A DNA stretch of 64,000 nt from positions 1 through 64,000 of the forward strand of contig BDDD01000885.1 in NCBI GenBank assembly GCA_001972305.1, in the 5' to 3' direction. Under the pieces are notes generated by a model, which made no database searches, was not told the origin of the DNA, and saw only the letters and a list, made by a program, of their open reading frames with translations. The position numbers were made by a program, and so were the translations under genes. Positions 660-60,916 of the stretch are shown one piece after another; the first letter of the stretch is position 1; the number at the start of each line of letters is the position of its first letter. Source of the stretch: Cephalotus follicularis. Lineage: Eukaryota > Streptophyta > Magnoliopsida > Oxalidales > Cephalotaceae.

Positions 660-905
660 CTACTGATTTTATTTCCCAGCATGTTGACATTTTTCATTAC
701 AACGTTGTCGTGTTCTTGATTGAACACCGACGTGTTCTTGAATGATTACAAGCATGTCAACATTTTTCATTAAAATGTCAGCATGTTCTTGATTGATTAC
801 CAACACACTGAAGTTTTTCCCATAAAGTGTCGATGTGAAACCCTATCACTTTTGCCTCTAATCCTGACTCAAAATGTCGATGTCTTATCTTGGAACGTCG
901 ACGTC
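660..905 (+). repeat. Degenerate TCGA-palindrome array in A1 LTR
   Basis: Units such as cgttgtcgtg, caccgacgtg, agtgtcgatgtg, atgtcgatgtc and cgtcgacgtc recur in roughly 20-25 bp steps, partly alternating with cattaaaatg and gttcttgattga stretches. This is the most degraded of the arrays in the window. Confidence 0.5.
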
Positions 906-1899
906 TTGTACTTTGAATTACTTAATTGTTAGGTTATAAATAGTGATGTTTTGACTTGTTATCAAACGATGTTCAATGGGAGCCTCCTATGATTCAAAAG
1001 ACTTTATACTAAACATATTTTCATATGCTTACTGACCGACGACATTGGGTAACCACGTTGGGATAAGCACTTGTGCTTGAGCTGGATTGTAAGTGCATAA
1101 GACTTTTATTTACAAACACCAAAGTTACTAGGTTCTTAAGAGATGATGCTCTATCCGGAGCCCCCTTCGACTAGAGTCGATTGTTAGCCTGAGCTTGAGT
1201 ATCTACACTTGACTTAGTTCTCTGAGCTAAGCATTGATTCTTGGTGTCTAACCTTACTTGGGTTATCCCTTATTACCTGGTTGCTTGTTTTTAAACTATT
1301 GGCAATGCTTTTCAAATGATCGCCTTACAGGATTGCACGTGGGATCAGTCAAGCTCTTTTGAAAATTATTTTCTACATGGTTAGACAGGTCATAATCTTT
1401 TGGTAGATCAATTGATTGTACAACACTTTCAATTGACATGATTGACTAACCGGTTCATTGACCGATATATTGCTTGACTGACTTATTGAACTATGGCCTT
1501 ATCATCGACCGACCCTTCGTATTGAAAGATGGAATAGTCATGTTAACGATTGAGTGATTGATTGAGACCATAGGAACCTTAGTGATCTCTTGTCGGGTAC
1601 GCTTGGTATCCCCCTCCAACTAGAGATTCGTTGTCTATTGGTTAATGATATTGTCATCGATTAATTAATTGACTGTGACCATAGACTCTTTAACGATCTC
1701 TAATTAGGAAGCTAAGCGATGGTTATGTACATATCCATCGGTTCCCTCTGGTTAGATAGTTGACGCCTATTGGCTATTGACATTGACTGATTGATTGCAT
1801 TGTATTGGTTTTGTTGGAGTGACCTCATAGTTCTAGACAAGAAGTCAAGCGATGGTTGCACCATATGTTCCCTATGACTAGATCGCCACTACCTTCAGG

Positions 1900-2060
1900 C
1901 ATATTGTATTGAGCCACCTATGGACAGAGCTATTGATTGGGCCACTGACGGGCAGAGCTATTGGGCCGCCAGAGGGAAGAGCCATATAACTACGAGCCTC
2001 CTTGGAGCAGAGCTATTGAGCCACCTTTGGGCAAAGCTATTGTTCATTTGGTTGATTGGG
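1900..2060 (+). repeat. Short tandem module (gagccacc...agagctatt) in A1 LTR
   Basis: Several imperfect units of gagccacct.tgg.cagagctattg follow one another. The reverse complement of the same module appears at 37825-37880 and 44830-44885. Other family A LTRs carry different tandem modules at the matching place (28910-29105, 32820-33230). Confidence 0.6.
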
Positions 2061-2145
2061 TTTGGCTGATCCAAGATAACTAGACTCGTTTACCCACCCT
2101 TTTTGAAGGACTAATTTCTGTGGGTTAGACTATCGATATCGATAC

Positions 2146-4220
2146 TGTCACACCCCGTTCCCATTAACAACATAAATCATGGTAATTTAACATAAATCCA
2201 GCTTATACAAAAATACGATAAATTTAGAACTTTGATTCCAATAACATCTTGCGGAAGCATTTAATAATAAGCTGAATAAGTTAACCAAATCATGCGTCCC
2301 ATACCACATGATTCCAACATTTCATATCATTAAACCATTGTCAACTGCCCTCAAACGGAGCGTGATCAAAAGTTGATCAACATCATTAATCCATTAACAC
2401 AGTAACCCCAAATAAAAACATGTCTCACTACATCGTTTAACATTAATTTAAGTAAATAAAACTCCATCTCCCCTCCGAATCGACCGTGCTCGGCGATATC
2501 CATATCACTGCATCAATCTAAAAATAGTAGGGGGGTTAGCCTTTTTCCTCACTCGGCTAAAATATAAGTGTAGTTCAGGGTCAATGATAATGAATGTCAT
2601 GAAATGAATGCATCCATGACTCAATACATAATATATCACAATACATATATATGTATACATATATGCATCTATTCCAATAGGTGCAACCATTCCAAGTGGC
2701 TACAACCACCAAATCATCAATCATGTCACAAAGGACAAATCAAATCAAATCGAATCAACTGTACGAAGAGCGCCGCCATCTCCTGGTCCCGACGTTGTAC
2801 TCTTACTTCGGCCCCCAACTCCTGGGTCACTAAACAAGGCAATAAATCAAACTCATGATGCTCGCACTCTGTGTTCAGCAATCATGGTAACCCATGTTAC
2901 TTGCACTATGTGTCTAGTAACATTGTATTTGGTCTCCCTAGCTATTTCCTGGCCCCTAGGAGAACACCCCGCCACCAGCCATCGGCGACACTCTGTCACC
3001 CCAGCCAGTACGGCATCAATCACAATCAACAAATCAATTCGAATCAAATCGTTTCTAAGTAATTTACAAGTTATAAAATACTGGAAATATTACATTTATT
3101 CAAAATGTAACCAGTCTTTGAAATCACGTTTCAATCCGTCGAAAACATACATTTATCAAAATATACATTTTCATATAAAATAATGATTTGTATAAAATCA
3201 TGTACACATTTCTAAAATGAATAAAACATTTTAGAGATCATTCATATTCCAATCATCAGTTCATTTCATATCAAAATGCAATGCAAACATATGCTCAAAG
3301 TGCAGATCAGTCCCTAACAGTCAGCTGTCTCCTCTTGACAGTCGGCTATTTTACCTTCAACAGTCGGTTGTCCTAAATTTGGTAGTCGGCTGCCCCCTTA
3401 ACAGTCGGTTGTCTCCACTTGACAGTCAGTTGCTTCATAAACAGTACGCGTCTTCTACATCGCTACCCTCCCCAGCCTCGCCACCTTAGCGAATCCAGGT
3501 AAGGAGACATATGGACAGTCGACTGTCATCCCAAACAGTCGGTTGTGCCATCTACAGTCGGATGCTCTCTCTCAGCAATCGACTACACAACCAGCAGGAG
3601 GTGTCCTCCATTAAAATGCACAAACAGTCGACTGGCTCCTTTGCACAGTCGGCTGTTTCCCATCGAGTAGTCGGTTGTTCTACTGAACAGTCGGCTGGAA
3701 CCCTCGAACAGTCAGCTGTCCTCCTGGGACAGTCGGCTGCTCCTACAAGTAGTGCACAAAAACAGCAGGAAAATACATGTAATTCTCAACCCAATCCATT
3801 CAAAATAGAGCATTTATCAACAGCAACACACATTCATGCTCATATCACAGTCTATTGCATGCATTTCATCTATGAACATCTATTATAACTGAACATAAAC
3901 CAACAATATAAAATCCCCTACCTCGAATTCTAAGTTAGGAATTGCAATCCACCTCTTTAAGTCCCAGATCTGAGGCATTCAGAGCTCTCAAGTCCATCCA
4001 ACAACTCCAACAAGCTCGGTTCTCCCACTGGTTCGAGCCTCCAAGTCCCCAGCTCAAGTGTGGAGCATTTGGCTTCACCTATCTCTCTCTTTTCCTCTAT
4101 TTCTCCCTCACAACTCTTTGTTTCTTTTCTCTCTTTGAAATTATGAGGGAAAGAGGAAGAGAATGTGTGTTTTTATGGGAAAAACATGTTTCCCCTTTTC
4201 TCTCTCTCTCTCTGCCGACA
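2146..4220 (-). mobile_element. Family B LTR inserted in the A1 LTR
   Basis: Starts TGTCACACCCCG and ends GCCGACA, giving a TGTC/GACA terminal inverted repeat. The left end (cggaagca and the catgcgtcccataccacatg block) matches the reverse complement of the 3' end of the LTR at 6604-9034 and the left end of the LTR at 63646. Family A sequence resumes directly at 4221. No clean target-site duplication is visible, so the junctions may have been altered after insertion. No coding sequence accompanies it, so it is probably a solo LTR. Family B is judged Gypsy from LTR style only. Confidence 0.7.
3318..3740 (-). repeat. CAGTCGGCTG-core array with 21-bp spacing
   Basis: At least sixteen units of acagtcggctgtc or acagtcgactgtc. 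The gtc of successive units falls at 3320, 3341, 3363, 3385, 3403, 3424 and again at 3518, 3538, 3557, 3578, then 3627, 3648, 3670, 3690, 3711, 3732. Most steps are 20-22 bp. The core differs from the GTCGACGCTT core of the related family B LTR at 6604-9034. Confidence 0.9.
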
Positions 4221-6603: not shown

Positions 6604-6830
6604 TGTAATAACAGCAATTTCAAATTTAATGTATATTGTCTAAATGATGAAAAAATTATAAATTGATTTGAAATTAATTCTTAATTCCCCATGGATTAAG
6701 ATAATTGTTGTTATTGGATTAAGTTGAGGGTTTAATTGTTGGGATAAAAATGAATATAAGGGTTAAATTGAATTAAATTGAAAGTTAGTTGAATAAAGTT
6801 TAAAGAAACAGAATTTGAAGACAAAGAGTC

Positions 6831-6902
6831 AACGCCAAAGATGAAAGCATCGACGCTTTATGCCTAACCGTCAATGCCAAGGAGAAAACTGTCGACGCTT
6901 TG
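6831..6902 (+). repeat. TCGA-palindrome array, first block in B solo LTR
   Basis: Four units (gtcaacgcc, atcgacgcttt, gtcaatgcc, gtcgacgcttt). Two have the intact TCGA core. The other two have CG replaced by CA or TG-type bases. Confidence 0.75.
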
Positions 6903-7114
6903 CACACAGACAGGTGCCTGATACGTGTTGCCTAGAACAAAGCAGTGGCACAAATGTTTTTTTAATTGGACGGGTATCCTAGAAATGTGTCAAACATTGC
7001 ACGACATGGCGCCAACTGCTAGTTAGGGGTGAGATTAGTGTCCTTAACGTTTGTGACCTGCAAAATTGTAAGAAAACAGAAAACAAAACAAAATCAGAAG
7101 AGTTTAGTGGAAAT

Positions 7115-7116
<2 letters not shown>

Positions 7117-7169
<53 letters not shown>
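7117..7169 (+). repeat. (GA)n microsatellite
   Basis: An uninterrupted run of about 26 GA units within the family B solo LTR. It also creates long serine/leucine reading frames that are not genes. Confidence 0.95.
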
Positions 7170-7172
<3 letters not shown>

Positions 7173-7687
7173 AAATGGTGAAATCTTGAGTTAAAGAATT
7201 AAGCAAATTAATGAGTACAGGATTCCTTTATATCAGATGTTAGAGAGACTTGAGTTGAGTTAGAAATCTTACTGAGAAAGAGAGAGACCATCTACCATGC
7301 TAAGTGTTCATGCCAAATTAGAGTTCAAAGTTGAACTTAAAGCATTAATTAGATTTCGTAAGCTTCTGGTTGAACTCAGTTGTTATTATAGTTAATCAGT
7401 TGTGTATAAATATAATGATTTTTGTTTTATATCTACTATTAACCTTCAAATTGATTGATTTCTGAAATTATTGAAGATTGATTGGAGTTGAAGGAATATT
7501 GGGTGTAAAGAAAAGAATCAATTCAATTGATTCTGTGATAGCGTTTTGAGGTAGGGTTTATGACATGATTATGAAGATATAGCATGTATATTATGTTAAG
7601 ATGGTTTATATATGATTGCATGTTTATGTTTGAGTGAATTGAATTGTGAAATGCATGCTCTTTTGCTATGAATCGCAAGAACACTAG

Positions 7688-7835
7688 AAACCGTCGACGC
7701 TTGGTAAGGAACCATCGACGCTTTAGGTGAAAATTCATCGACGCTTAAGGAGGGATACCATCGATGCTTTAAATAGACTATCGACGCTTTGGGAAGAAAC
7801 TGTCGGCGCTTTAGTAGAAACTGTCGACGCTTAAG
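7688..7835 (+). repeat. TCGA-palindrome array, second block in B solo LTR
   Basis: Seven units of the type (g/a)tcgacgctt. The TCG cores start at 7694, 7715, 7738, 7761, 7781, 7803 and 7824, giving steps of 21, 23, 23, 20, 22 and 21 bp. Six of the seven keep TCGA. Confidence 0.9.
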
Positions 7836-9039
7836 AGCCTGTTCCATGTTCAATTCTCCTGATTACACTGGCTTCCATATGGGATTATTCCAATAATCAG
7901 TACTTGGTATGTATACTCAGATCACAGGAATCGAATAACTTAATCACTACTATTTTGATTCTTATAAATTGATATTGAGTGTACTATTTATCCACTGTTT
8001 GATCCTTGAACTGCTAATGAATGTACTGTTATGCAAATTGAATATTGTTACTGTTATAGATATTTTATATCTATAAAAGTATTTTATATAAATACTAATG
8101 TTTTAAGGATTTAAAGTACTGAGTGCTATATGCACACTTAAAGGTTTTCCACTATACTGTTTTCTCGAAACAAGAACCTACTGAACTGTTTTACTATTTT
8201 CTTAAAATGAAAATTACTGTTATTGTTACTATTTTCTCTACAAAAAAGAACCACTGTTATATTACATTATATATGTAATAACTGTACTGTACTGTTTGTG
8301 ATTAATAGTATGATGGTCTTGTGATCAGAGTGTATCACAGAATACAGATGTGGGTCTAGGTGCCAGGAGTTGGCTAGAGCTTATACATTAAACTTATCTG
8401 CAATGTAGATCATGACTGTTAATTGCCCGCTAAGTGACGGCAATACTGTTAACCTTTTCTAACATCATCAGAGTGTATGGTGATAGTTAGGTGGTGCATC
8501 GTTGGGGCTAGGAGGTAGCGACGTTTGATACCTACTGGTCTTCGAACAACTATACTCTTTGTACCCTTTATGGTATTCCTGATGATTGAATGTTTGTAGC
8601 AACTTGGCATGGTTGCTTATATATATTGGCATATATACAAATACTGTTTAGAAATATAAACTGTCATACATGATTACATCTTTATATTCATTTTCATGCA
8701 TATCTCCTAATTAACCGAGAAGACAAAAGGCTAATACCAACGATTTCATATTAACGAAGGGAAGTGGAGACGTGCTGCTGAAGCTTTGCGCTGAAGTTTT
8801 TATTTAAGGTTGTAAATTGTAATAAGTCATGCCCTCTGTTATAATTACATTGCCAATATGTAATATATAACTTGCTTGTAATAAAGTTTAAGCATGTAGT
8901 ATGGGATGCATGTGTATACTACATGAATGATCAAGTATATTGTTAAGCTTCCGCAAAGTTTAAAAGTTTTAAATTATTGGTAAATACTGGATTAATTGAT
9001 TAACCATGTGTTAATAAAAAAAAGAGGTGTGACATGCAT

Positions 9040-11188: not shown

Positions 11189-13572
11189 CGTCACGCCCGA
11201 ACCGAGGGCGAAACCCCACAACCCAACATGTGAAACCATCCATACAATCCATACATATCATTCCTAAAAATATGTCACAAATTTAAAACTTTAAATACCA
11301 TATGAATGCGGAAGATAACATCAATACATAAAGACAAGCCCATCCATCCATATACATATCTTAAGCGCTACCACAAGTCAACAGGTCAAAAGCTGAAATA
11401 CAAATATCTCTTATACATCCAAACCTATACACAAGGTACATACCAAAGCAAAACCGTTGACCATAATCTATCTGGAAAGCCCGATCCGCTTCGGGCTGCT
11501 TCACTGCGGTGCACCCCCCAAACCTGCACCTGAACCTGACCCATTACGGGAATGGGTCAGCAAAGGCTATACAATATGCTATGCATGCAATAGATATAAC
11601 AGATATATATGCATGACATGTTACATGCATGAATTCCATAGTGGACAGCTTTGGTATACCAATTGTCCCTAAGCAGTGGTATACTTAGCTAGTCCTAAAC
11701 ACATCAAGGCCATAGGCCTGCAAACACTCCATAAAACCATCCATAACCATCCATAGGGTCAAGTACTTCTCTACCGCTCCGGCCCGAGATAGTACCTCTA
11801 TTGTCTATACACTCTTCGTGCCACAGCCATATGGAGCATAGGATAACACCGACCACATAATCCATACCATAATTCTAGTCCCCTATAGAGGGTACTAGCC
11901 CCATCCATAATAGAGATCTCTGGGAGCAAAGACATGTTTGTATGTATACCATACCCCTATCAATCCATAATGCGGTGGTTGCTCAAGTCACCCAAAAAGA
12001 GAGGATTCCATAACCATAATATGTGGCCTACATCCATAATTCTTCATGACGGAAATGAAGATTATGAATGGGTTATCCCGTAAGGACTAAACCATAACCA
12101 TCCATCAATTATAGCCATACTATACCCGTACCCATAACCATATTTCTATTTAAAGGATAGAGACCTACCATAAAGGATCACATAGGATCCATCCGTCGAA
12201 ACCATTTAAAACCCTTTTTCCATAACCCTTTCCCTTTTCCATTTCCATTCGTTTGTCCCTATCGGAGTTTGAAAACAATGGAGAGGCAATCTAATTAGGA
12301 TATCCGCGTCCGGATGTCCTAATTGAGCTATCCTAACCATTCTTGAAAGCCATTTGTATAAAACCCATTTTTAATAAAACTTTCCTTAAAGATTTTCTTG
12401 AAAGTTAATTTGAACATCAAAAGATGTTTAAAGAGGCTTCACAGAGGTTACAAGGCCTTAGGGAGGCTTCTTACGGATTCATTTGGAGAGAAAACTATTT
12501 GGGATTAAAACAGTAAAGTTTGGCTAAAAACAGGGGCTTAGGCGTCAACACCTTCATGTTAGGCGTCGATGCCTATCGTCTAAGCATCGACGTTTTGCGC
12601 TAGGCATCAACGGCTAAGGCAATATGCCTTGAGCGTCAACGCATGTCGCTAAACGTCAACCGCTTACCATACAAAAGGCGTCGACTCTTATGTCCATTCC
12701 CTCTTATCTTGTTAATGTGTCGCACTGATTGGCGTACAAACGCGAAGGACACATAGGGCGTCGATGCTTATCGTCTAAGCGTCGACGCTCTGGGCGCTGA
12801 AGAACATGTCGACGTGCACGAAAAACACGTCGACTCCCCGGGCTACTGAAATTACTGTAAAATGCCCAAAAATCCATCAAAATCCATTTAAACTATTTTT
12901 AATTCAATTCAAAGAAAGCCATAAGCTCCAAACACCATTTAAAACTCAAAAACAGCTTTTAAACCATTTAAATCCATGTCCATAACCCATAGATAGAGAG
13001 AAAATAGGAATTGGGTTCAAGGACCCAACTCACAGTTTCCTCTTAAATATCCATTTCAATCCATTATAAACCATTCCATATTCCATAAACCATCCATCTA
13101 GCATGTCTACAGCCATCCATAACCATAAAATCATACAAATCCATCATAATATGGAGATCGGAGCATAAGTATAACCTGCCTCAAATCGGTTAAAAACGGA
13201 GAAAATGTTGCTTGGATCCTCAAACTGATTCTCCCTTCAGGATCTACCTGCTGCCACGATCCCAGAGACACCATGTTTGCTTGATTTCGTCCACCTTTTC
13301 TCTCTAGCTCACTCACTCTCTATATATATATGAAATTTGAAATAAAAGAGCTGAGCCGTCTATATATAAAAATAGGCGCCCTTAAGGAAAAAATCTCACA
13401 AACAGCGATCAGGTTCTACTGAACCTCCATTACCCATAAACAGGCATAAAAGTGGAAAATAGAATATATGATATACAATCCATGCCATCCATGAGTACAA
13501 TATTGTACTATACCATATAAATACAAGTAAAATACATGCCAACCTGTCAACGTAAAAGATATGGGGCTTACA
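11189..13572 (-). mobile_element. Tekay 3' LTR
   Basis: 2384 bp, ending GGGGCTTACA at the internal side, identical in its last ten bases to the other LTR. A TATA-type promoter stretch (tatatataaaaatagg, read on the minus strand) lies near 13355-13375. The TCGA-palindrome array lies at 12541-12835, downstream of that promoter in the sense of transcription. Confidence 0.92.
12541..12835 (-). repeat. TCGA-palindrome array in Tekay 3' LTR
   Basis: Unit aggcgtcgatgcctat, taagcgtcgacgctt and variants. Cores start at 12545, 12566, 12587, 12607, 12636, 12656, 12681, 12761, 12782, 12809 and 12830. Adjacent steps are mostly 20 or 21 bp. Variants are largely TCAA or TTGA, that is CG changed to CA or TG. 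Confidence 0.9.
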
Positions 13573-18617: not shown

Positions 18618-21014
18618 TGTCCCGAACGGTCCTCATGACCCGACACGTGAAACCATCCATACAATCCATGCATATCATTCCTTAAAATATGCTACAGATT
18701 TAAAACTTTAAATACCATATTTATACGGAAGATAACATCAATATATAAAGACAAGCCCATTCATCCATATACATATCTTAAGCGCTGCCATAAGCCGATA
18801 GGTCAAAAGCTGAAATACAAATGTCCCTTATACATCCAAACGTATACACAAGGTAGATAACAAAGCAAAACCACTGACCATAATCTGTTTGGAAAGCCCA
18901 ATCCGCCTCGAGCTGCTTCACTGCGGTGTACCCCCCAAACCTGAACCTAAACCATTACAAGAATTGATCAGCAACCAAAGGCTGTGCAGGCTATACAATA
19001 TGCTATGCATGCAACAGATATAACAGATATATATGCATGACATGTTACATGCATGAATGCCATAGTGGACAACATTGGTATACCAACTGTCCCTAAGCAA
19101 TGGTATACTTAGCTAATCCTAAACACATCAAGGCCATAGGCATGCAGACACTCCATAAAACCATCCATAACATTCCATAGGGGGAAATCCATCCACAGGG
19201 TCAAGTACTTCTCTTCCACTCTGGCCCGAGATAGTACCTCCATTGTCTATACACTCTTCGTGCCATAGTCATATGGAGCATAGGATAACATCGGTCACGT
19301 AATCCATACCATAATGCTAGTCCCCTATAGAGGGTACTAGCCCCTGGCATAATAAGAGATCTCTGGGAGCAAAGACGTGTCTATATGTATACCATACTAT
19401 ACCCTTATCCATCCACAATGCGGTGATTGCTCAAGTATCCCAAAAAGGGAGGATTCCATAACCCTAATATGTGGCCTACATCCATAATTCTAGATGACGG
19501 AAATGAAGGTTATGAATGGGTTATCCCGTAAGGTCTAAATCATAACTATCCATCAATCATAGCTGTACCATACCCTTACCCATAACCATATTTCCCATTA
19601 AAGGATAGGGACCTACCATAATGGATCACATAGGATCCATCCGTCAAAACTATTTAAAACCAATTTTCCATTACCCTTTTCCTTTTACTGTTCTATTTGT
19701 TGGTCCCTATAGGAGTTTGAAAACAATGGAGAGGAAGTCTAATTAGGATATCCGCATCCGAATGTCCCAATTGAGCTATCCTAACCATTCTTGAAAACCA
19801 TTTGTATAAAACCCTTTTTTAATAAAAATTTCCTTAAAGATTTTCTTGAAAGTTAATTTGAAGATCAAAAGATGTTTAAAGAGGATTCACATAGGTTACA
19901 AGGCCTTAGAGAGGCTTCCTATGGATCCATTTGGAGAGAAAGCCATTTGGGATTAAAGCAGTAAAGTTTGGCTAAAAACAAGGGCTTAGGCGTCAAAGCC
20001 TTCATGTTAGGCGTCGATGCATATCATCTAAGCGTCGACGCTTTGTGCTAGGCATCGACGGCTAAGGCAATATGCCTTAAGCGTCAACGCATGTCACTAA
20101 ATGTCAACTGCTTATCATACATAAGGCGTCGACGCTTATGTCCATTCCCTCTTATCGCATTAACATGTTGCACTGATTGGCGCACAAACACAAACAACAC
20201 ATAGGGCTTCGATGCTTATCATTTAAGCGTCGACGCTCTGGGCGCTGAAGAACACATTGACGTCCACGAAAAACACGTCAATGCCCTGGGCTACTGAAAT
20301 TAGTGTAAAATGCCCAAAAATCCATCAAAATCCATTTAAACTGTTTTTAATTCAATTCAAAGGAAGCTATAAACTCCAAACACCATTTAAAACTCAAAAA
20401 CTGCTTTTAAACCATTTAAATCCATGTCCATAACCCATAGATCGAGAGAAAATGAAAATTGGGTAAAAAGGACCCAACTCACAGTTTGCTCTCAAATCTC
20501 CATTTCAATCCGTTATAAACCATTCCCTATACCATAAACCATCCATCTAGCATGTATACAGCCATCCATAACCATAAAACCATACAAACCATCATAATAT
20601 GGAGATCGGAGCATAAGTATAACCTCCCTCAAATCGGCTGAGAACGGAGAATATGTTGCTTGGACCCTCAAACTGATTCTCTCTTTAGGTTCTACTCGCT
20701 GCCATGATCACAAAGACACCTTGTTTGCTTGATTTCGCCCACCTTCTCTCTCCAGCTCACACACTCTCTATATGAAATGAGAACTAAAAGAGTTGAGCCG
20801 TCTATATATAGAAATAGGCTCCCTTAAGGCGAAAATCTCACAAACAGCAATCAAGTTCTTCTGAACCTCCATTACCCATAAACATGCATAAAAGTAGAAA
20901 TTAGTATATATGATATACAATCCATGCCATCCATTAGTACAATATTGTACAATACCATATAAATACAAGCGAAATACATGTCAACCCGTACACATAAAAG
21001 ACATGGGGCTTACA
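18618..21014 (-). mobile_element. Tekay 5' LTR
   Basis: 2397 bp from TGTCCCGAACGG to GGGGCTTACA. It carries its own copy of the TCGA array (19990-20290), with the first cores at 19993, 20014 and 20035 (21-bp steps). A TATA-like stretch (ctatatatagaaatagg read on the minus strand) lies near 20800-20818. Confidence 0.92.
19990..20290 (-). repeat. TCGA-palindrome array in Tekay 5' LTR
   Basis: Same array as in the 3' LTR, unit for unit, with extra CG-to-CA or TG variants (for example atgtcaactg, acattgacgtcc, acgtcaatgcc). Confidence 0.9.
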
Positions 21015-24529: not shown

Positions 24530-24785
24530 CGACGATGCTACATTGGAAGCGGCGATGCTTAAGAGCCTTGGTGCGTTTATGCAAAAGAGTGCAAAGCGTC
24601 GACATTTTGCCTGTTATGAAATAGGCAGCGTTTAACGGTAGCACTTAAACAATGGATGAACCCAGGCTAAGCGGTGACGTTTACAATCAAAGCATCAATG
24701 CTTTGATCAGAATGTGTTCAATTTAAGGGAGTAACAAGGCTACATGGTGACATTTTAATGCAAAGAGCCAGCGCTTAGTCTAGCA
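24530..24785 (-). repeat. Degenerate TCGA-type array in A2 LTR
   Basis: Units such as aagcgacgatgct, aagcggcgatgctt, aaagcgtcgacattt, aagcggtgacgttt and aagcatcaatgctttg. The AAGC...GCTT arms are better kept than the centre. Equivalent arrays lie at 28106-28375 and 32395-32645. Confidence 0.7.
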
Positions 24786-26261: not shown

Positions 26262-26392
26262 AACCGTTGACGCTTTACTTGATAGCGTCGACGCTTTCCT
26301 CATTTGTTTAGTTTACGTCGACGCCTCAAGTCGATGCTTTCCTTGTTTTTTTTATATATAACCGTCGATGCCTTGACAAAGCGTCGACCCTT
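26262..26392 (+). repeat. Second TCGA array in Athila solo LTR
   Basis: Units cgttgacgctt, gcgtcgacgctttcc, acgtcgacgcc, agtcgatgctttcc, cgtcgatgcc and gcgtcgaccc, flanked by ctttcct stretches. Confidence 0.8.
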
Positions 26393-32350: not shown

Positions 32351-32394
32351 TGCAAAAGTTTAAACTTATGAACCCTAAGTTCTGCCGCACTAAG

Positions 32395-32645: not shown

Positions 32646-32819
32646 TAAAGCTCATAGATTTTCTAAAATGTTTTGAAAGTATGTTTTCAAACTGCTTTTC
32701 TTCCGGGTCCTTTTCTAGGCCCGTGGTACTGTTATGGCTGGGTTTCTACTCAGATTTTAAAGATGACATGGTAAAGGTAAGGGTACAGTAGAGTCTATAG
32801 ATTTTTCATGATACGTGAT

Positions 32820-38873: not shown

Positions 38874-39064
38874 TGTTCACGTATTTTGAATGTTTTAAAA
38901 TTTATACCGCAAGTGCACGGTTGTGCAGTAATGGGTCAAACACTAGAAAATCAAGTTAAATTAATTTTAATCTATTCAACCTAGAGATAGTATGCAAAAT
39001 CAAAGGTTATTTTTCAAAACTACTCCTAAACATGAAAAACTAAACTAAATAATCAAAACAGGAA

Positions 39065-39150
39065 ACGAAGGCGTCGACGCTTTGTCAAGGCGTCGACGTG
39101 AATCTATTTAAAGCAATACAGCGTCGACGCTTACGGGGTAGGTGTTGACG
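39065..39150 (-). repeat. TCGA array in Athila 3' LTR, first block
   Basis: aaggcgtcgacgctttg, aaggcgtcgacgtg, cagcgtcgacgctt and ggtgttgacgg. The counterpart in the duplicated copy is 46070-46150. Confidence 0.85.
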
Positions 39151-39335
39151 GTTAAAGGCACTGATACGACAATGAACAGAAATTAAAGTAGGCAAACAAT
39201 TAATTATCAAAGCAATAAATAAAAAGAAATGAAATATGCGAATTAGAGTTGGTTTTAGGGTATAGAAACTCACCATAGATTATATTGAACAATTCACTTG
39301 CTTGAACGATCAAACCTTGATAACCAACGGCATCT

Positions 39336-39485
39336 ATGTCGATACGGAGTGCGACTGTGATGAAAAATCGTATGAGTAGTGATGCTAGGTCTATACGGAG
39401 TGTGGCAACGGCGACAAATCGTATGAGTAGACATGCTAGGTCTATACGGAGTGTGTTCGTCGTGACAAACCGTAAGAGTAGACTC
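39336..39485 (-). repeat. 51-bp triplicate (CCGTAT/ATACGG) in Athila 3' LTR
   Basis: Three units with atacggagtg and aaatcgtatgagtag, the reverse-strand counterpart of 25935-26090. Also present at 46338-46487. Confidence 0.85.
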
Positions 39486-39879
39486 CATTGATTGCGTTAA
39501 ACACCATTTATTAAACAACGTTCTTATTCACCGACAAGATGTTTGTGAGTTGTAATCAGACAGACAAAGTGTGTGTGAAGGCAGAAAATTGAAGAACAAA
39601 TCAAAACTTCAAGGATTTTTATTGATGGAATTGAAGCAATACAATCTAATTGCTTGTTCTTTCCCTAAAAACCTTAAAGGTTTAGCTACTAAACATTGTA
39701 ATTAACTAAAAACTGAATTAAAGAAGAAAAGAGAGCAAGAGGGTGGCTACTCCGGCTACACACTATTTTTAGCTGGCCTCTGTACATATATATAATCACA
39801 AAACTGATAAAAACGGAAATGAAACTACCCTAATTACAATCCGTGCATAAATCAAAACTTTCCATATTTGTTCTTGTCG

Positions 39880-40125
39880 TAAGCGTCGACACTTTTGGTG
39901 AAGGCGTCAACGGTTTTATAAGTAAATGTGCTATGCGTCGACTTTCGCGTTGCAGAACATAATTGATTTTTCACAAAGACATCGACGTGGTTCAGAAGAC
40001 ATCGACGCTTTTAGTTCAAAAGTTACAGGTCGATTTTTCACAAAGACATTGATCCAGTTATATGATGACATCAATGTTTTAACAAAAGACATCGACATGA
40101 TTCAGAAGACATCAACGCTTTTATT
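39880..40125 (-). repeat. TCGA array in Athila 3' LTR, second block
   Basis: aagcgtcgacacttttg, aaggcgtcaacgg, gcgtcgactttcg, aaagacatcgacgtgg, aagacatcgacgctttt and further units. A last block is at 40500-40580 (aagtcgatgctttaa, aagcatcgacacttt, ccgtcgacgcttt). Confidence 0.85.
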
Positions 40126-44782: not shown

Positions 44783-46858
44783 ATGGGGAGTCAGAGTGGA
44801 GCCTAACAATGCAGCCCGTTGGCGCGTCAATACAATCAATAGCTCTGCCCGTGGGCGGCTAAAATAATAGTCCAAAGGCATTGACGATCTATTCAGAGGA
44901 AACAATTGGGGAACCACCACCTAGCTTCCTGTCTAGAGCCATGAGATCGCTCCAATAGGAACGATATAATGCATTCATTCATTCAATCAATCAATCAATA
45001 TCAATAGCCAATAGACGACGAGTGTCTAACCAGAGGTAACAAATGGATATGTACATAACCATCGCCTTGCTTCCTGACTAGAGACCGCTAAGACACCCAT
45101 GGTCACAATCTCTCAAACAATCACCAACGTGACTACACAATCGTTCCATACAACGGATCGGTCAATGGATGGACCGTAATCCATACAATCAGTCAATCAA
45201 TTTAACGGTCAATGATTTAGTCGGTCCATCAAGTCAATTGAAAGTGTTGTACAAAAAATTGTTCTACCAAAAGATCAAACCTGTCTAACCAGGTAGAAAA
45301 TAGTTTTAAAAAGAGCTTGAGTGATCTCAATTACGATTCGGTCAAGCAATCATTTGAAACGCATTTCAAACTGTTTAAAAACAAGCAACCAGGTGTTAAG
45401 GGTAACTCAAATGGTGATGATTAGACTTCAGTAATCGACGCTTAGCTCAGAGAACTAAGTCAAGTGTCGATGCTCAAGCTAACAATAGACTCTAGGCGAA
45501 GGACACTCTGGATAGAGCATCATCGCTTAACAACCTAGTAACTTTGGTTTTGTAAAGACAAACATTAAGTGATTATGATTCGATTCAAGCACAAGTGCTT
45601 AGCCAAACATGGTTACCTAATGTCGTCGGTTAATCAACATATGAAAATATGTTAAAAACATGTTTAAAACAAAGTCATTTGAGGCATAGGAGACTCCAAT
45701 TGAAAATCGTTTGACAAGTAAGTGAAAACAACACTTTTGGGTGAAACTAGTCGACTAAGTTGCTCAGACTTGCAAACCCATTGCCAGGAATAAGAACATG
45801 GTCGACAAATTTCATAATTAGCCAACTAACAGATCATTTTTTTGTAGAAAACAGCAAGTAGCCCTTTAGCCAAATTCCAATTTTGAAGGTTGTTCACCTA
45901 TTTTGAATGTTTTAAAATTTATACCACAAGTGACGGTTGTGCAGTAACGGGTTGAACACTAGGAAATCAAGTTAAATTAATTTTAATCTATTCAACCGAT
46001 GGATAATCAAAAAAGTAAATTACTCCTAAACATGCAAAAATAAACTAAATAATCAAAACATGAAACGAAGGCGTCGACTCTTTGTCAAGGCGTCGACGTG
46101 AATCTATTTAAAACAGTAAGCGTCGACGCTTACGGGGTAGGCGTCGACGGCTAAAGGCACTGATGCGACAATGAACAGAAATTAAAGCAGGCAAACAATT
46201 AATTATCAAAGCAATAAATAAAACAAAATGAAATATGCAAATTAAAGTTGGTTTTAGGGTATAGAAACTCACCATAGATTATATTGAACAATTCACTTAC
46301 TTGAACGATCAAACCTTGATAACTAACGGCAGCTAGGTCGATACGGAGTGCGACTGTGATGACAAATTGTATGAGTAGTCATGCTAGGTTTATACGGAGT
46401 GTGGCAGCGGCGAAAAATCGTATGAGTAGACATACTAGGACCATACAAAGTGTGTTCATAGTGAAAAACCGTATGAGTAGACTCCATTGATTGCGTTAAA
46501 CACCATTTATTCAACAACATTCTTATTCACAGACAAGATGTTTGTGGATTTTAATCAGACAGACAAAGTGTGTGTGAAGGAAGAAAATTGAAGAAAAAAT
46601 AAAAACTTCAAGGATTTTTATTGATTGAATTGAAACAATACAATCTAATAGCTTGTTCTATCCCTAAAAACCTTAAAGGTTTAGCTACTAAACATTGTAA
46701 TAAACTGAAAACTGAATTAAAGAAGAAAAGAGAGCAAGAGGGTGGCTCCTCAAGCAACACACTATTTTTAGCCGGCCTCTATACATATATATACTTACAA
46801 AACTGATAAAAACGGAAATAAAACAACCCTAATTACAATCCGTGCATAAATCAAAACT
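44783..46858 (-). mobile_element. Second copy of the family A/Athila LTR block
   Basis: 44783-45890 is family A LTR sequence and 45891-46858 is the sense 3' half of the Athila LTR, in the same order and orientation as 37776-39855. It contains its own degenerate array (45400-45540), TCGA units (46070-46150) and 51-bp triplicate (46338-46487). Confidence 0.8.
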
Positions 46859-48487
46859 AGACCATACATCCAATGGTCAACTCCATGGACCTTTATCATG
46901 CAGTGTATATTTTGTCATAAATTATAAAAAACACAATAAAGTAAAGATGTCATTAACATATTTTATAAAATCAACTGAATAAGAAGGTTTTTACATCCCA
47001 TTTATTACAATAATAGGTGGCTGCCAAAACACACACTATTAAAGAAGTAGTCATATCAAATATCAAGAACTGAACAAAAGTAACACAATAAGAATAAAGA
47101 AATACGAAACAAACTGATAATCATACTGAGTACTGAGCTGATATCAAAATAATCATACAAATGCAAAATATGCAATACATGGGACTGTCAGTATTCATAT
47201 GTATAACAGAATGGTGCGTGTGGCACAACCATCCCAAAAACTTACAAAACTTACAAATTAGGGCCAACCCATACGCTTCCTGAAAATCATGTCCTACTCT
47301 CATGCTACAAATAGGCCTACTCCTCTACTCATAAGCCCTAATGAGATGTTGTGGACTAATCACGCTGCCACAGATAGTGTCGTGTTTCCATGCGAAGAAA
47401 ACATGCGTATGGTACCCTCACAGGTAGTTATAACTCAGTGAGAAAGAAATACAATGATACAACGAATAATTCATCATAGCTAAATATTGCTCAAATGCCA
47501 CAACAGATGCAAAACAAATAAATCCCAATAATCAGATTTAATCATACTAAGAGATTTCAATAAGGTTCAATAGAAATCATTTCAGAAATAAAGGGTACTA
47601 ATAATCAAAGTGACTGAATATCAAATTTATGAATAATCAAATTCCAAATTATTCACAAGGTTCAGTTATCAAATCGAAACCAATATCAAAGGAATTACGA
47701 TTCAATAAATAGCAAGTTTTTGAATGAATCATAATTCATGGTATAAAAAAACTAAAATAAGTTCAAGAATCTCGAAGGAAGGAATCAAGAATGAAACATA
47801 TTCCGTACTACAAATCATTAATCGCAAAACTAAATCAGTTTCAAAGAACTATATATAAAAGGAAGTCTAAGAATGTGAATACGTACCTTAATCACTTGAG
47901 ACAAACACAAAATCCAATCAATAGAATGAGAAAATGAGAGAAAATGGTTGATATGTGTGATGTATAAAAGGAAAAACTCACGTACTAATACATATCTATA
48001 TATTTACAGCGCTAGGGTTTTAAACTAACGCGTTTTCTTGAATAATTGCATCGACGCTTTTATAAAAACATATATGTAATCAATTCTTTTGAAACAATTT
48101 CGTCGACACTTTTCTAAAAAACATCGACACTATAAAACAATAGGTTTACACGGCTAGGAATGCATAAAAGACTCCGGTGCTTAAGGAACACGCGACGCTT
48201 AGTGCAAAACAAAAGTAACGTCGACGCAATTTAAAATAACATTGATGCATTTGCACAGAAACCTAGAAATCAGTTCCGATTTTTAAAACAAATTCCATCA
48301 AATTCATTTGTAACTCAAAACCAAATCATGAACATAATTGTAAAACTACTAATAGCTTACTTGACCAAATACAATATCAAATTAACTCAAATCAAAATTT
48401 ATCCGGCCCAAACAAATACCGAACATAATAAACGATGGAACGAACAAACAAAGCTCAAGAATAAAAAAATTTATTCAAGGTATTACA
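46859..48487 (-). mobile_element. LTR D, reverse strand, inside Copia Q gag
   Basis: The right end CAAGGTATTACA gives a minus-strand start TGTAATACCTTG, typical of Gypsy LTRs. Copia Q gag sequence begins at 48488, so D inserted in that gag. The left end is cut at the junction with the duplicated Athila LTR. A TCGA array is at 48045-48245. No coding sequence of D is in the window. Confidence 0.65.
48045..48245 (-). repeat. TCGA-palindrome array in LTR D
   Basis: gcatcgacgctttta, tcgtcgacacttttc, aacatcgacacta, acgcgacgctta, aacgtcgacgc and aacattgatgc. The pair at 48103 and 48124 is spaced 21 bp. Confidence 0.8.
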
Positions 48488-52470: not shown

Positions 52471-53430
52471 TGTTGACGATTCAGTCCCAATCCTTGTTTT
52501 GATGATAACATATTTGTATTTGACAAGTTTACTTGATGTGTAAGAAATTACAAGTTCAATACCAAAGCAAAAATACCATATGCAGAAGAAGACATCGACT
52601 TTCAAGGAATAACATCGACGTCCGTACAGAAAGACATCGACCCCTTTCAAGAAGACATCGACGTCTTTCATGCCAGAAGTTACAGGTCAAATTTGCATGA
52701 AGACATCGACTCCTACAGGCAAAGACATCGACGTCCGTACGAAAGAAGTCGATCCCTATCTGAAAGATATCGACGTCTTTAGGTGCCAAAGTTACAGGAC
52801 AATTTCGAGTGATGACATCGATGCTTATCAGTAAAGACATCGACGTCCGTACGAAAGATATCGACGCCTTTCAATAGACATCGCGGCTTTCTAGAGCTAC
52901 CTGCATTTCCCAGAAAAGACATCGACCCCTACAGAAGAAGTCGATGTGATGTTCAAAGATTCAAATCCTGGAGATTTTCCAGAAATGACATCGACGCCTT
53001 TTAAAAAGACATCGACGTCTTTTTGAAATGGTTTGACCCGGGAAACCTGGAACGGCTAGTACGCGCACTTCCAACGGCTATCAGATATAAAGACATCGAC
53101 GCCTTTTGAAAGATATCGACGTCTTTATGTCAGCAGAGACAAAAATCAAAGATTAAAACTACACATTTTTAAATCAAAAGCTTCCATGATTTATGCAACG
53201 GCTACAAATCTTTCATGGCTATAAAAGGAAGATTGAAACCTCAGAAGAATAACAAGAATTCAGAATTATTCACATCAATCACACAACATCAAGAGAAATA
53301 TCAAATCCAAGCATTCTAGTGTGCAAAAAGCTCAAAGTGCTCAATTGTGTTCTAACAAGCTTCTAAGCTTTATTCTTTGAGATTATCTGAGTGTTTCATA
53401 TTGAGAGCTGTATTTTTCATACCTACCTAT
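52471..53430 (+). mobile_element. Partial Copia-type LTR L between the duplicated copies
   Basis: Starts TGTTGACGATTC right after GTCAT (52466-52470), resembling the solo LTR at 59744 (TGTTGAC...ttgatgataacatattt). A TATA stretch ggctataaaagg is at about 53218. The 3' part expected for this class (gtggatgtaggcaag...) is absent, and the sequence joins the second duplication copy at 53431. The empty site aatGTCATaaaaa is kept at 57143-57147, so GTCAT is the insertion target. It carries the richest TCGA array in the window. Confidence 0.8.
52590..53125 (+). repeat. Eighteen-unit TCGA-palindrome array with higher-order period
   Basis: The unit is AAAGACATCGACGTCTTT or close. Core starts are 52595, 52615, 52637, 52658 / 52706, 52728, 52749, 52770 / 52818, 52840, 52861, 52881 / 52922, 52941 / 52991, 53012 / 53096, 53116. 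Steps within groups are 19-22 bp. The first two four-unit groups repeat every 111-112 bp, with an agttacagg..aattt spacer at 52678 and 52789. Confidence 0.95.
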
Positions 53431-57147: not shown

Positions 57148-57474
57148 AAAAACATTTCAATATCCAAGTCAATGTTAAAGTTAGTATACTAGAAAACATG
57201 ATCTCCCCTACCCCGAAGGGACTATGGTTCCAAGTGTCAAAAATCTTTAATGTATGAATCCTTTGTCCATATAGAACTTGGAGTAGGATTTGAATTCTAT
57301 TGGAAATAAAACTAGTAAGGTAAGAGATAAAATTGTTCTCCAACTATATCATACATGTCTTTCCATTAAATTTGCTTAAATCATCAACCTTGGTAAAAAT
57401 ATCAGTAACTTGATAACTAGTCGTGCGCTAACAAACTTCAATTCCATCAACTTTGATCAAATCACGAATAAAAT
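57148..57474 (-). mobile_element. Small antisense Copia RNase H remnant and flank
   Basis: The minus strand of about 57357-57474 reads FIRDLIKVDGIEVC, then VTDIFTKVDDLSKFNGK, the C-terminal end of a Copia RNase H. 57148-57356 shows nothing I can name. The fragment is cut at 57475 by the LTR of Copia V. Confidence 0.65.
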
Positions 57475-59000
57475 TGTTGGATATTTAGGTTTGGCTCAAA
57501 ACAATTTCGTTCATTGAGTATGTCCGACCTGATAAAATGTTAATTTTGATCTTGTGTTTTATCTTCGATTGGAAGAACAACTTGATCGTGCTTTTGTATG
57601 TTTGTTTTTGTGTTCGTGATTCTTTGTGGACGTAAAACAAGAAGTTGAAATGCTGGAGTTCGTTAATCTTAAATTTCAAAAGGTCAGTAACGAATACATA
57701 TATTGTTTGTATTTTTTTCTCTACATTGGTATCAGACCGAGGTTTAAGTTGTTTACGTGTATCTAGAATTTATATATATCATGAAAAATTCAATAGAATG
57801 ATTAAATATACGTTTTTGAAACTGTATTTTTGAGTGGGAAGTCAACCTGCACCATTTGTTTTACCGCTTTTATTTGCAGTTTTTTTCCCGATATAGTTCT
57901 TTTTATTGTGGAATAATGGCTATTTATTAGAAAATAAATAACTATAAATCATAGAAAATCTGAAAAATGGTGGAAATTTTTCTGTGCATTTATGTGACTG
58001 TTTAGAATATACATTAATAAACTTAGAATTTCTGGACAAGTTACAGTATTTATATTTTATTATTAATTGTTCATCAATAAATAAATACTATAAATCATAG
58101 AAATCCGAAAAACTGTGAAACTTTTTCTGTGTATCTATGTGATAGTCTAAAATGTTCACTAATAAACTGGAAATTTCTAAATGATTTATAGTATTTATTT
58201 TTTATTATCGAGTGTTTATCAATAAATAAATAACTATAAATCATAAAAATTACAGAAATTTGTGAAATTTCATATTTATGATTATGATATTTTCTGTAAT
58301 GATTGATCGTTACCATATATTTTTTAAGTGTCCTTGGTATTTTATTTTGATTATGGACTATTTATTAGTGAACAAATAACAAATAAATTATGGAATTTTC
58401 ATGATAATATTTTTAAAATATTCTAAGTTTGCATGTGATGTCATGAGATATTTTGGGTACCTCTCGTACTGTTTTTCAAATTTTTGGGCTTGATATATCA
58501 TGGTAAATTATTTAATCTGTGAAATATGCCTAAAAAGTTTTTTATTTTATTGAGTGAGATTGTCGAGTCGAGTAAAATTAAATTTTTATTCCTCAGAAAC
58601 TAGATTGATCATTGTTTAAAAATTTACGCATAATAAATTTAAAAATGAAATATAGTAGAGCATTAAAAATGGGAGATGATTAATTGCTTGAGTAATTTAT
58701 AAATCTTATGGTTAGTGTGATATTATTATTATTTATTTTTGGGTTATTGTCACAAATTATTTGGTTTGTGCTAATTATAAATAACCTATTTACTTATACT
58801 TTGTGTTGTTTTCCCGTTTTCAATAATCCATGGCATCCAAATCGGTCGCTGCTAACCTGAAAAAGGGTGAGAAATTGGATGGTGACACTTATGATATTGG
58901 CACTGCAATATACAATACATCATGGTCGAGCAAGATCTTGTTGATACCCTGACTCATACCATGGAAGAACCTCCATAGGGAAGTGTTGCTTTCACTATAA
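57475..59000 (+). mobile_element. Copia V: 251-bp LTR, primer site, leader and gag start
   Basis: The LTR is 57475-57725 (TGTTGGATATTTAGG to TTCTCTACA). The primer site TGGTATCAGACCGAGG is at 57727-57742. A long AT-rich leader with tandem repeats follows, then gag from ATG at 58830: MASKSVAANLKKGEKLDGDTYDI, continuing with EQDLVDTLTHTMEEPP. The gag stops near 59000 where the reverse-strand LTR of Copia U begins. The right border is approximate. Fossil, mostly missing. Confidence 0.8.
57920..58400 (+). repeat. About four tandem units of roughly 145 bp in the Copia V leader
   Basis: The phrase aataaataactataaatcat begins near 57932, 58077 and 58222, with a weaker fourth near 58365. Between them, ctgtgaaattttctgtg.atttatgtga and aataaact..aaatttct recur. 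The units have diverged from each other. Confidence 0.8.
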
Positions 59001-59738
59001 AAAGCCTAGATTAACACTTAAACTAAGTCATTAACAAGTAAATCATAAAAATTGGAATGGATATACAAGTTATGAAACCTATGCCAAGATTTCTTTGATC
59101 ATCATTTTGATATATGTACATAAACAAAAGATCAAGAGAAGGAGAATATGTAACACTTACTAGTTGATTCTTTACTCCTTCAATCTTTTCAATACGTTAT
59201 CTAACCTCAAGGCACTTGATGAGTGACAAAGTGTATGTCACCTCGAAGACATCCACTGCAAGACAGAAGCAAAGGAGAAGATGCTAGTTTCTAAAACCCT
59301 TAGTCTCTTTTCTTCTTTAAGTGAAATGAAATCCTTAATCATTTTCTACAAACACTTTAGTGTGTGTGTGTGTATTCATCATATGACTTACTAGCTTTTG
59401 ACTAGATCAAGTCAAATGTACATAACTTAAGTGAATGTCACATATAATTAATCACATTAATCATATAATCTTATCTCATAAGTTTAGTTCAATTATACTA
59501 CACACATTAGCATAATTAATTCCCTCTCTAATACTCTTTCATTCATTCTCACACTTGTATTGTGTGTGACTCTATGAGTTCATAATTACGCTGGACATAG
59601 GAATAATCGTAACAGTATACGATTCTCCAATTAGTCATTTCTAATAACATTAGAAACTTCTAATCCAAATAAAAGAATTAAACCCTAATTTTAATTTCTT
59701 TGTTACAGGTGATTAATAATCAATCAATCTAAGTTATC

Positions 59739-60916
59739 CTACTTGTTGACTTTTTATCTCAATCCTGAATTTCAATGATTACATATTTGGATTTAACATT
59801 GTCACTTTCTGTGCAAGAAAAGATAAAAAAAATAAAGAAGTGCAGAAACAGGACAAAGCATCGACGGTTTGTATATAAGCAAAAACGATTAAGGGAAAAC
59901 TGAAGAAGGTCTCAGTCAAAGCGTCAACAGATGAAGTATTGCAAAGCTGTGCAAAACTACTTAAAGCGCCGACAGTCTCAAAGAAAGCGTCAGCGGTTTG
60001 GACCCAGGAGTCAACGCTTAAAGAGCATATATCAGAGCTTTATTCTAGGGACTTGTAAATCCAATTAAGGAACTCAAAGAGGTGACGGTCATAAAGAAAG
60101 CGTCAACGGTTTCTCCAAAAAGTCGACACTTAGAACAAAGTGCCAGCGGTATGAGCGAAGATTTCAAATTCATACACACAACGGTAACATAAGCGTCGAC
60201 GCTTAGTGTTACTACGGCGACACTTTGCGCGGCTGGAAACATTAAAAGAAGCTATTTTTCAAGCCGTCTTCAACACAACAAGTTCCAAGACATTCCCAAC
60301 AGCTCTATTAACTCCACAACGGCTACAAACTTAAATCTACAATAAATAGTAGCTAAGAATCAAGATTAAAGAAGCTTTTGCACAACCTAAGAAAAGAGCT
60401 CAAATTGCACAACTTTAAATCAAGAAGAGAAGAACATCAAGAGGAAGTCTACACTTTCATATCCAAAGCTTGTGTCTAGATATTTATCACTTTCATATCA
60501 AACCTTGTAGATGTTATATCCAGGTCTCAAAACACAAAACAATCTTTCATTGTAAAAAGGGAGTTAAACTCTTAGTGAGATAATCAAGGGAAGTGAACGC
60601 TTAGTAGGATTATCGTGGGAAGTGAACCCTTGTAAGGTGTTTTCTTTGATTTGCACCCGTAACCCAAAATCAAAGGGTACTAGTTGATTTATAGTTGAAT
60701 CTCAAGGGGGTCCTTGGGAAAAGTGGATGTAGGCAAGAGTTAGCCGAACCACTATAAACCGTGTTTGCATCTCTCTAACTCTTTCTCTCTTTACTTACCA
60801 TTGTTTGTATTTGTTATATTGTTCTTGTGTGATTGTTTATATTCATAGTTCAATTTATTTTTTCCGCAAATCATTTATTATACAAAGGTTGCCATATAAA
60901 ATTGTCTTTCACTACT
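59739..60916 (+). mobile_element. Copia-type solo LTR S with TSD CTACT
   Basis: 59744-60911 (1168 bp, TGTTGACTTTT to GTCTTTCA) is flanked by CTACT at 59739-59743 and 60912-60916. The 3' part has gtggatgtaggcaagagttagccgaaccac, a signature of plant Copia LTRs of the SIRE/Maximus style. A weak TCGA array lies at 59855-60235. Confidence 0.9.
59855..60235 (+). repeat. Decayed TCGA array in solo LTR S
   Basis: aaagcatcgacggttt, aaagcgtcaacag, aaagcgccgacag, aaagcgtcagcggttt, gagtcaacgctta, aaaagtcgacacttag and aagcgtcgacgctta. Three intact cores remain; the others show CG-to-CA changes or other drift. Confidence 0.75.

Follow-up and report, generated by a model that had tools for sequence, protein, structure and literature searches.

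Arrays of regularly spaced palindromes common to several LTR retrotransposon families in a Cephalotus follicularis contig

Arrays of short palindromes, with neighbors about 21 bp apart, are common to the long terminal repeats (LTRs) of several retrotransposon families in the stretch of Cephalotus follicularis DNA analyzed here (contig BDDD01000885.1 of assembly GCA_001972305.1, positions 1 to 64,000, hereafter the window). We consider the existence of these shared arrays to be confirmed. All results come from this one window of 64,000 nucleotides in one genome and are given in forward-strand coordinates; the elements and arrays, with the short names used in the text, are collected in Table 1. 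We read the arrays as probable enhancers of the LTRs, made up of sites for a dimeric host regulator; binding, dimerization, cooperation and activation are all inferred from the DNA sequence.

Palindromic units, their spacing and their arms

The window was compared with 200 block-wise dinucleotide shuffles of itself, counting both LTRs of an element. TCGA occurred 227 times, compared to about 141 in the shuffles, and pairs of TCGA 19 to 23 bp apart 35 times (shuffle mean of 2.0, standard deviation [SD] of 1.5, maximum of 7 in the 200 shuffles). Palindromes around TCGA in which no more than one of the 7 pairs fails to match numbered 27 versus 2.9 in the shuffles (maximum of 8). When 16 palindromic cores were compared as perfect 12-bp palindromes, the excess of TCGA was the largest (11 versus 0.7). 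The symmetrized consensus of the unit, derived from 74 seed sites, is AARRCRTCGAYGYYTT, with CGTCGACG as its core. The original prediction had described the arrays as TCGA-centered, which agrees with this excess but not with arrays A24, A28 and B, where the AAGC/GCTT arms are retained and the central TCGA is often lost. The arms therefore matter, and the term is a simplification.

A refined profile of the unit gave 136 positions of at least 9 bits versus 5.0 in Markov-1 sequences, although it had been fitted to the same data. A fairer cross-test used a profile whose only training data were 17 units from LTR Y. It scored 71 positions, 53 of them outside Y, compared to 5.4 per random window (maximum of 12 in 20 windows). 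The intact elements accounted for 15 (Tekay-like) and 14 (Athila-like) of these matches, both LTRs of each being counted, followed by T (6), the second Athila LTR (4), Aint25 (3), the units at 0.9 and 48 kb (2 each), L and the units at 60 kb (1 each) and 5 elsewhere. The coding stretches checked gave five weak matches to the profile (8.2 to 10.0 bits). Every array listed in the original prediction was found, the members at 12545, 12607 and 25072 being decayed units without an intact TCGA (the last scores below the profile threshold). Further arrays beyond that list are the first array of L, those of A24, A28, B, AthInt and D, and the variant array of S.

With one LTR counted per element, 56 of 95 gaps between neighboring units measured 19 to 23 bp (mean of 20.8, SD of 0.8 bp), 47 of them being 20 or 21 bp, in agreement with the predicted spacing of about 21 bp. 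The S array consists of another palindrome, ACAGTCGGCTGT, although its LTR is related to that of L; 12 of the 14 gaps between its 15 units are of 19 to 22 bp. The spacing of neighbors is thus fixed even where the palindrome word differs. The sequence between units is nearly free: among 31 five-base spacers taken from gaps of exactly 21 bp, identity was 0.32 within arrays (37 comparisons) and 0.25, the chance level, between arrays (428 comparisons). It had also been proposed that the spacing, as two helical turns, presents all units on the same face of the DNA. This is compatible with the adjacent units, but no periodicity of 10.5 bp was apparent in the 36 gaps of 25 to 100 bp (R = 0.13, jitter p = 0.56), and we rejected general helical phasing. 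The repeated object is a pair or short run of units about 21 bp apart rather than a long helically phased array and, as phasing is shown only for adjacent units, two helical turns are indistinguishable from close packing of footprints of about 18 bp.

The similarity of the arms was evaluated on 52 TCGA sites that have another TCGA at 19 to 23 bp, picked without regard to their arms and from one LTR per element. Identity between the Ty3-type sites (6 from Tekay and 5 from L; S and B contributed none) and the Copia-type sites (17 from Y and 6 from T; none from D) was 0.535, whereas other TCGA sites gave 0.327, with a maximum of 0.353 in 500 draws; the resulting p-value should not be taken literally, since sites inside one array are not independent. 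Athila-type and Copia-type arms were 0.60 identical, a figure without its own null. For units picked by the profile, identity was 0.57 between lineages, 0.58 between arrays of one lineage and 0.67 within arrays, to be read against 0.33 for random 16-mers and the fact that profile picking itself favors likeness.

Two dialects of the half-site could be distinguished. The TC dialect, GACGTCTT, makes up 24 of 36 half-sites in Y, 6 of 12 in T and 2 of 8 at 0.8 kb, and the CT dialect, GACGCTT, predominates in A24 (10/12), A28 (13/14), B (9/16) and D (10/18). Tekay half-sites are mixed (GACGCTT in 6/22 and GACGCC in 8/22), and those of the Athila interior comprise 5 of 16 GACGTCTT and 4 of 16 GACGCTT. 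Unit dialects do not track the lineage of the elements, indicating that modules are either exchanged or selected by one shared host protein. As predicted, the motif is common to LTRs that otherwise cannot be aligned. Once the units were masked, related arrays still aligned and arrays from different lineages did not, which rules out a single inserted block with shared flanks.

Turnover, proposed role and rival explanations

Comparison of related LTRs indicates that the arrays turn over. Athila-like LTRs with 85% identical flanks differ by some 43 bp, equivalent to about two units gained or lost, and two LTRs of the T family (79 to 88% identical) differ by a clean 611-bp segment (30591 to 31201) that contains the whole array. 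Either insertion or deletion could have produced the latter, and no duplication was seen at the segment ends. Between L and S the palindrome word has changed, and between Y and D the dialect. Spacers have some words in common: AthInt and Y share AAGTTACAGGTC (12 bp, in the same register), and B and A24 share GAACAAAACCTATT (14 bp). In letter-shuffled spacers, the longest common word reached at least 12 bp in 7 of 40 cases and 14 bp in none of 40. A second control, with windows taken from elsewhere, gave words of at least 14 bp in 23 of 40 draws, probably because such windows can catch two copies of one repeat, and does not support the claim of spacer sharing. The original prediction had called for either a common selective pressure or transfer between families; the spacer words hint at some transfer, and some exchange of modules between lineages is plausible, not proved.

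In the interpretation that we favor, the arrays would be cis-regulatory modules of the LTRs, that is, clusters of two-fold symmetric sites of 16 to 18 bp with the half-site GAYGYYTT. A dimeric host protein would bind each site as DNA, and adjacent dimers, 20 to 21 bp apart, would be in contact or closely packed and would bind jointly. The bound arrays might then attract the transcription machinery to the promoter of the LTR in those tissues or under those stresses where the protein is active. Separate families would use the same or sister host proteins, with the word being kept, regained or exchanged while the remaining LTR drifts. Swapping the right halves of units within arrays did not reduce the pairing (370.5 ± 7.1 after swapping versus 364 for the true units; 109 units in 16 blocks). 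This lack of preference for pairing within a unit argues that each half is kept by recognition, as expected for a dimer on DNA, and not by base pairing. In seven of eight LTRs, the CpG observed/expected ratio was 1.0 to 2.1 in the arrays compared to 0.2 to 0.8 outside, a partly circular result, given that the units contain CG; the contrast is weak in S (0.70 in the array versus 0.59 outside). In Y, some 100 bp separate the end of the array from a TATA box, CTATAAAAGG, that lies downstream at 53219.

Regarding the protein involved, the best lead, a rather doubtful one based on motif content, may be the CBF/DREB group of AP2/ERF factors, with the core RYCGAC. This hexamer is common to the TCGA and S words and is present in 80 of 124 units (11 of 15 in S), compared to a background of 1.3%. 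The DRE sites described so far, however, consist of one hexamer each and do not form 18-bp dyads. RYCGAC is listed as CBFHV, and RCCGAC as DRE, in the relevant entries of PMC5183650 and PMC4886440, one of which files CBFHV under AP2/ERF, and it is in this hexamer that most units here, those of S included, resemble the listed elements. Other candidates were rejected. The original prediction had matched the AAAG ends to the core of Dof factors; AAAG is present in 60 of 124 units (background of 18%), but this likeness breaks down in Tekay (1/11), B (0/8) and S (0/15). The ARF word TGTCGR is found in 16 of 124 units only, the W-box TTGACY in 2 and the GCC-box in none. As for co-motifs near the arrays, the best of 2,292 seven-mers was GCAGAAC (3 occurrences versus 0.03 expected, p = 5e-6, about 0.01 corrected), followed by TGCAAAA and AGTTACA; they were dropped because the counts are small and include repeated copies.

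Several observations weigh against a common host-bound enhancer. The Y-trained profile found just one position in L and five across all stretches outside the named groups, although these stretches hold A24, A28 and B. Arrays are dispensable for an LTR, as the profile scan gave no unit in the solo LTR at 21359 to 23977 and the array segment is missing from the second T-family LTR. The position of the arrays relative to TATA-like words is not constant: these words come before the array in Tekay, T and the Athila LTR, on either side of it in B and L, and within it in D, whereas they are downstream of it in Y and far downstream in S. Such variation had been predicted from an array upstream of the TATA stretch in L and downstream of it in Tekay; the Tekay arrangement was recovered, with weak TATATATA words, and in L TATA-like words flank the array. 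RYCGAC is nearly absent in B (1/8), A24 (1/6) and A28 (0/7), so CBF/DREB factors cannot explain all arrays, and AP2 proteins are not known to require an 18-bp dyad.

A broader version of the host-protein interpretation is more tentative. One host protein, or a few sister proteins, might be the common switch of LTRs in both superfamilies, the modules being movable, fast-rebuilt cassettes passed on by recombination. This possibility is suggested by dialects that do not follow descent and by a spacing that is kept when the word changes, as between L and S.

Alternatively, the palindromes could act as RNA, with hairpins in the transcript feeding small-RNA silencing, so that the arrays would be a liability for the element or a handle for the host. 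Several sense folds beat their shuffles (z of −7.0 in T, −4.4 in Tekay and −6.7 in B), as did antisense folds of Y (−5.9) and of the Athila array at 39 kb (−5.8), and PMC5311732 and PMC10760457 report an excess of small RNAs at Sirevirus palindromes. Nevertheless, among the ten arrays folded, D (0.0), L2 (−0.3) and A28 (−1.1) gave no such sense signal, and one of six control flanks reached −3.8. Selection for hairpins was rejected on the lack of covariation within units described above; beside the core, A-C mismatches occur in 37 of 109 units and G-T in 15 of 109. Folding, moreover, predicts no fixed 21-bp spacing with free spacers, and we find this explanation unlikely.

Another improbable scenario is one without function, in which one or a few origins of a 21-bp repeat were followed by its spread through slippage within LTRs and recombination between elements, leaving debris. 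The greater likeness of units within arrays (0.67 versus 0.57 to 0.58), a 112-bp higher-order repeat in Y and the shared 12-bp and 14-bp spacer words would fit such an origin. However, duplication would have copied the spacers too, and these are near random; nor would a neutral repeat keep mirror arms while losing the sequence between units, as in A24 and A28. In S the spacing is kept with a different word.

The arrays might also be targets of a sequence-specific protein encoded by an element, for instance a trans-acting anti-silencing protein similar to VANC, parasitized by other families. PMC5735166 describes the VANC targets of VANDAL elements as short motifs in noncoding tandem arrays with fast turnover and word switches, and reports that AT9TSD1, unrelated to VANDAL, also responds to VANC6 (VANC target arrays are also treated in PMC10398659). 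Turnover of this style is apparent in L/S, Y/D, T and Athila. VANC targets are bound by a methylation-removing protein encoded by the transposable element (TE) and largely restricted to the family that encodes it, and the VANC21 motifs are described there as being in one orientation and rare in other TEs, whereas the sites studied here have two-fold symmetry and occur in several lineages. A thin search for a candidate gene (16 of 65 listed frames of at least 90 amino acids were domain searched) gave none, and we think this origin quite improbable.

Least likely of all are landing sites of the REM/CLSY3-CLSY4 type that recruit RNA polymerase IV (Pol IV) for the production of small interfering RNA: Arabidopsis REM factors do bind tandem motifs and recruit CLSY3/4-Pol IV according to PMC12270911, and AAGCG in the array consensus is a partial likeness to AAGCGGAT, but the units given there, TTTTGCTTAT and AAGCGGAT, have one-base spacing and do not match AARRCRTCGAYGYYTT at 20 to 21 bp, the CLSY3 motif of siren loci as given in PMC8752594 has no CG, and the identity was rejected on this published motif content.

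Comparison with known palindromic arrays

On the best reading by analogy, the closest known kind of array would be the repeated-motif (RM) box of Sireviruses. Bousios et al. 2010 (PMC2829016) describe these boxes as palindromic LTR words in high copy that form CpG islands upstream of the TATA box and also occur in the interior; within Ty1/copia they are called Sirevirus specific, with a CGG-CCG core, from a study of 21 Sireviruses and 30 classic Ty1/copia elements, a dataset that, as described, does not include Ty3 elements. The two words of our arrays resemble CGGTCGACCG of Vitis and ACAATCGATTGT of Tnd-1, both given in that source. The RM definition asks for at least eight palindromes per element, and Y (18 units per LTR), S (15), Tekay and L (11 each), D (9) and B (8) reach this number, whereas T (6) and the main Athila cluster (4) fall short. 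Judged by the observed/expected ratio, the CpG-island feature is reproduced in seven of the eight LTRs. A cluster just upstream of the TATA box is clear in Y only. Instead of CGG-CCG, the core is CGTCGACG, and in S units TCGG is present on just one of the two sides, although Tnd-1 also lacks the CGG-CCG core (PMC2829016).

Other Sirevirus marks are absent where they could be tested. The T family has AGTGGGAG-AT/TG in place of the polypurine octamer AGGGGGAG with AT/TG, and the only exact AGGGGGAG, at 34373, is part of the frame for the B gag. The C-rich integrase signal near the LTR end is missing in D, with a longest C-run of 2 in the last 60 bp. Thus, the arrays differ from RM boxes in that their hosts include Ty3-type LTRs (Tekay-like, B and Athila-like), in the 20 to 21 bp kept between neighbors, and in that the putative Copia-type hosts lack the Sirevirus marks that could be tested.

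In maize, Sirevirus LTR palindromes are hot spots of small RNAs (Bousios et al. 2016, as cited in PMC5311732 and PMC10760457), and no motif is more common in structured Helitron regions than the maize palindrome CACCGGACNNNGTCCGGTG (PMC10760457), which may serve as a precedent for a palindrome crossing superfamilies. The maize LTRs have in common with ours a palindrome-rich, fast-changing regulatory part; the word is different, and covariation in our arrays gives no support to a hairpin role. Of the other sources, PMC6911290, in the part that deals with palindromes, concerns insertion targets rather than LTR arrays, and PMC10670769 contains none of the searched words. In searches limited to listings of open-access papers, we saw no report of one palindrome dialect common to Ty1/copia and Ty3 LTRs, which is weak evidence of novelty.

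Searches of prokaryotic and viral collections gave zero viral matches and one bacterial tandem repeat. The latter, in Modestobacter lapidis (contig L001:3715-3895), has about eight 23-bp tandem copies with AAGGCGTCGATGCC or a close variant, and this unit look-alike is presumably a coincidence.

Carrier elements and wider meaning

The boundaries of T, L, D, the Tekay-like element and the solo LTR at 21359 to 23977 were set by target-site duplications (Table 1). The names Tekay and Athila come from the original prediction; the domains found are consistent with them but are not proof (RVP_2 [retroviral protease], RNase H, integrase zinc and SH3_Tf2-1 in the Tekay interior, Retrotrans_gag in the Athila-like one). 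Downstream of LTR B come a primer binding site with one mismatch, at 33946, and a gag that shares 45% identity with that of Tekay over 64 amino acids. The segment at 939 to 1597, adjoining the first four units of the window, matches the Athila LTR at 77%.

Table 1. Array-bearing and related elements in the window (coordinates from its first nucleotide)
Feature	Coordinates	Strand	Details
Four units beside Athila-like LTR segment	728..899	.	Last pair 21 bp apart
S array	3317..3740	-	15 units of ACAGTCGGCTGT; LTR S minus-strand end at 2146
Solo LTR L	6604..9034	+	Target duplication TGCAT; nested in Copia reading frame
L first array	6830..6893	+	4 units, gaps 21, 21, 21
L second array	7695..7825	+	7 units, gaps 20-23
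Tekay-like Ty3 element	11189-21014	-	Target duplication AATCA; left end no longer of TG form
Tekay-like 3' LTR	11189..13572	-	Array 12546-12831, 11 units
Tekay-like 5' LTR	18638..21014	-	Array 19994-20279, 11-unit layout as in 3' LTR
Array-free solo LTR	21359-23977		Target duplication GGAAT; 2.6 kb, Ty3-like ends
A24 array, Athila-like LTR	24533..24769	-	6 units, arms retained, core mostly altered
Aint25 array	25030..25093	+	Segment homologous to Athila interior 40501-40729
Array in Athila-like LTR	26268..26385	+	Flanks 85% identical to 38874-39544
A28 array, Athila-like LTR	28113..28352	+	7 units: three 21-bp pairs and one single
Solo LTR T, putative Copia type	29928..31379	-	Target duplication AGTAT; array 30692-30810, 6 units
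LTR B, 5' LTR of Ty3-type element	31439..33941	+	Array 32398-32639, 8 units
Athila-like 3' LTR	37775..39859	-	Array 39075-39146
AthInt array	39887..40113	-	Element interior just upstream of 3' LTR; 8 units, mixed dialect
Athila-like 5' LTR	44783..46858	-	Array 46075-46145
Five units, element of no assigned family	48052..48243	.	
Y, LTR start, putative Copia type	52471..53430	+	Array 52596-53117, 18 units
Solo LTR D, putative Copia type	59744..60911	+	Target duplication CTACT; array 59862-60197, 9 units
Second T-family LTR	62545..63375	-	Adjoins polypurine tract AGTGGGAG; no unit found

The lineages of L, S, Y, D and T are provisional assignments from termini and similarity rather than coding evidence. 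L and S had been predicted to be Copia elements, which our results do not support: L is a solo LTR that interrupts a Copia reading frame, and the 3' part of L can be aligned with S (62 to 64% identity, E values of 5e-14 and 5e-5), so neither has been shown to be Copia. Both end in GTGTGACA, a terminus that would seem to resemble those of Ty3 LTRs. T is probably of Copia type, judging from RNase H-like residues read by eye and from the polypurine tract of its relative at 62545 to 63375 (AGTGGGAG-AT/TG). According to the survey in PMC2829016, AGTGGGAG carries the commonest polypurine substitution of classic Copia elements. The frame beside this relative (63370 to 63699) gave nothing in profile searches or in the comparison with the other Copia frame in the window, and one irrelevant match in the PDB (E value of 0.45). 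The start of Y aligns with D over the first 77 bp at 74%. We take Y and D to be of Copia type, following the original prediction and the look of their first bases.

The 960-bp segment that contains Y is flanked by direct copies of 3.7 kb (48710 to 52470 and 53431 to 57147) that are 98.5% identical. Both have a perfect minus-strand primer-binding word, GCTCTGATACCA, about 20 bp from their start (48731 and 53452), which is not the appearance of simple LTRs. At 5018 and 5102, upstream of Copia reading frames, there is one more TCGA palindrome, TTAGTCGACTAA or near it, possibly another word of similar kind; similar palindromes occur at 38736 and 45752 in Athila LTRs. Apart from their palindromes, the Athila-like LTRs contain a tandem repeat of 51 bp that lies at a distance from the arrays (25934 to 26082, 39361 to 39483 and 46332 to 46482), and an AT-rich region at 57932 to 58250 consists of 2.2 copies of a 145-bp tandem repeat.

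If the arrays are indeed sites for a host regulator, retrotransposons of separate lineages within a single genome would have LTR control regions tuned to the same protein, and a single binding experiment could name a protein that controls much of the mobile DNA of this genome. One could then examine whether TEs arrive at host factors by convergence or pass control modules to one another. Palindromic LTR arrays would, in that case, be a wider feature of retrotransposons than a Sirevirus speciality.

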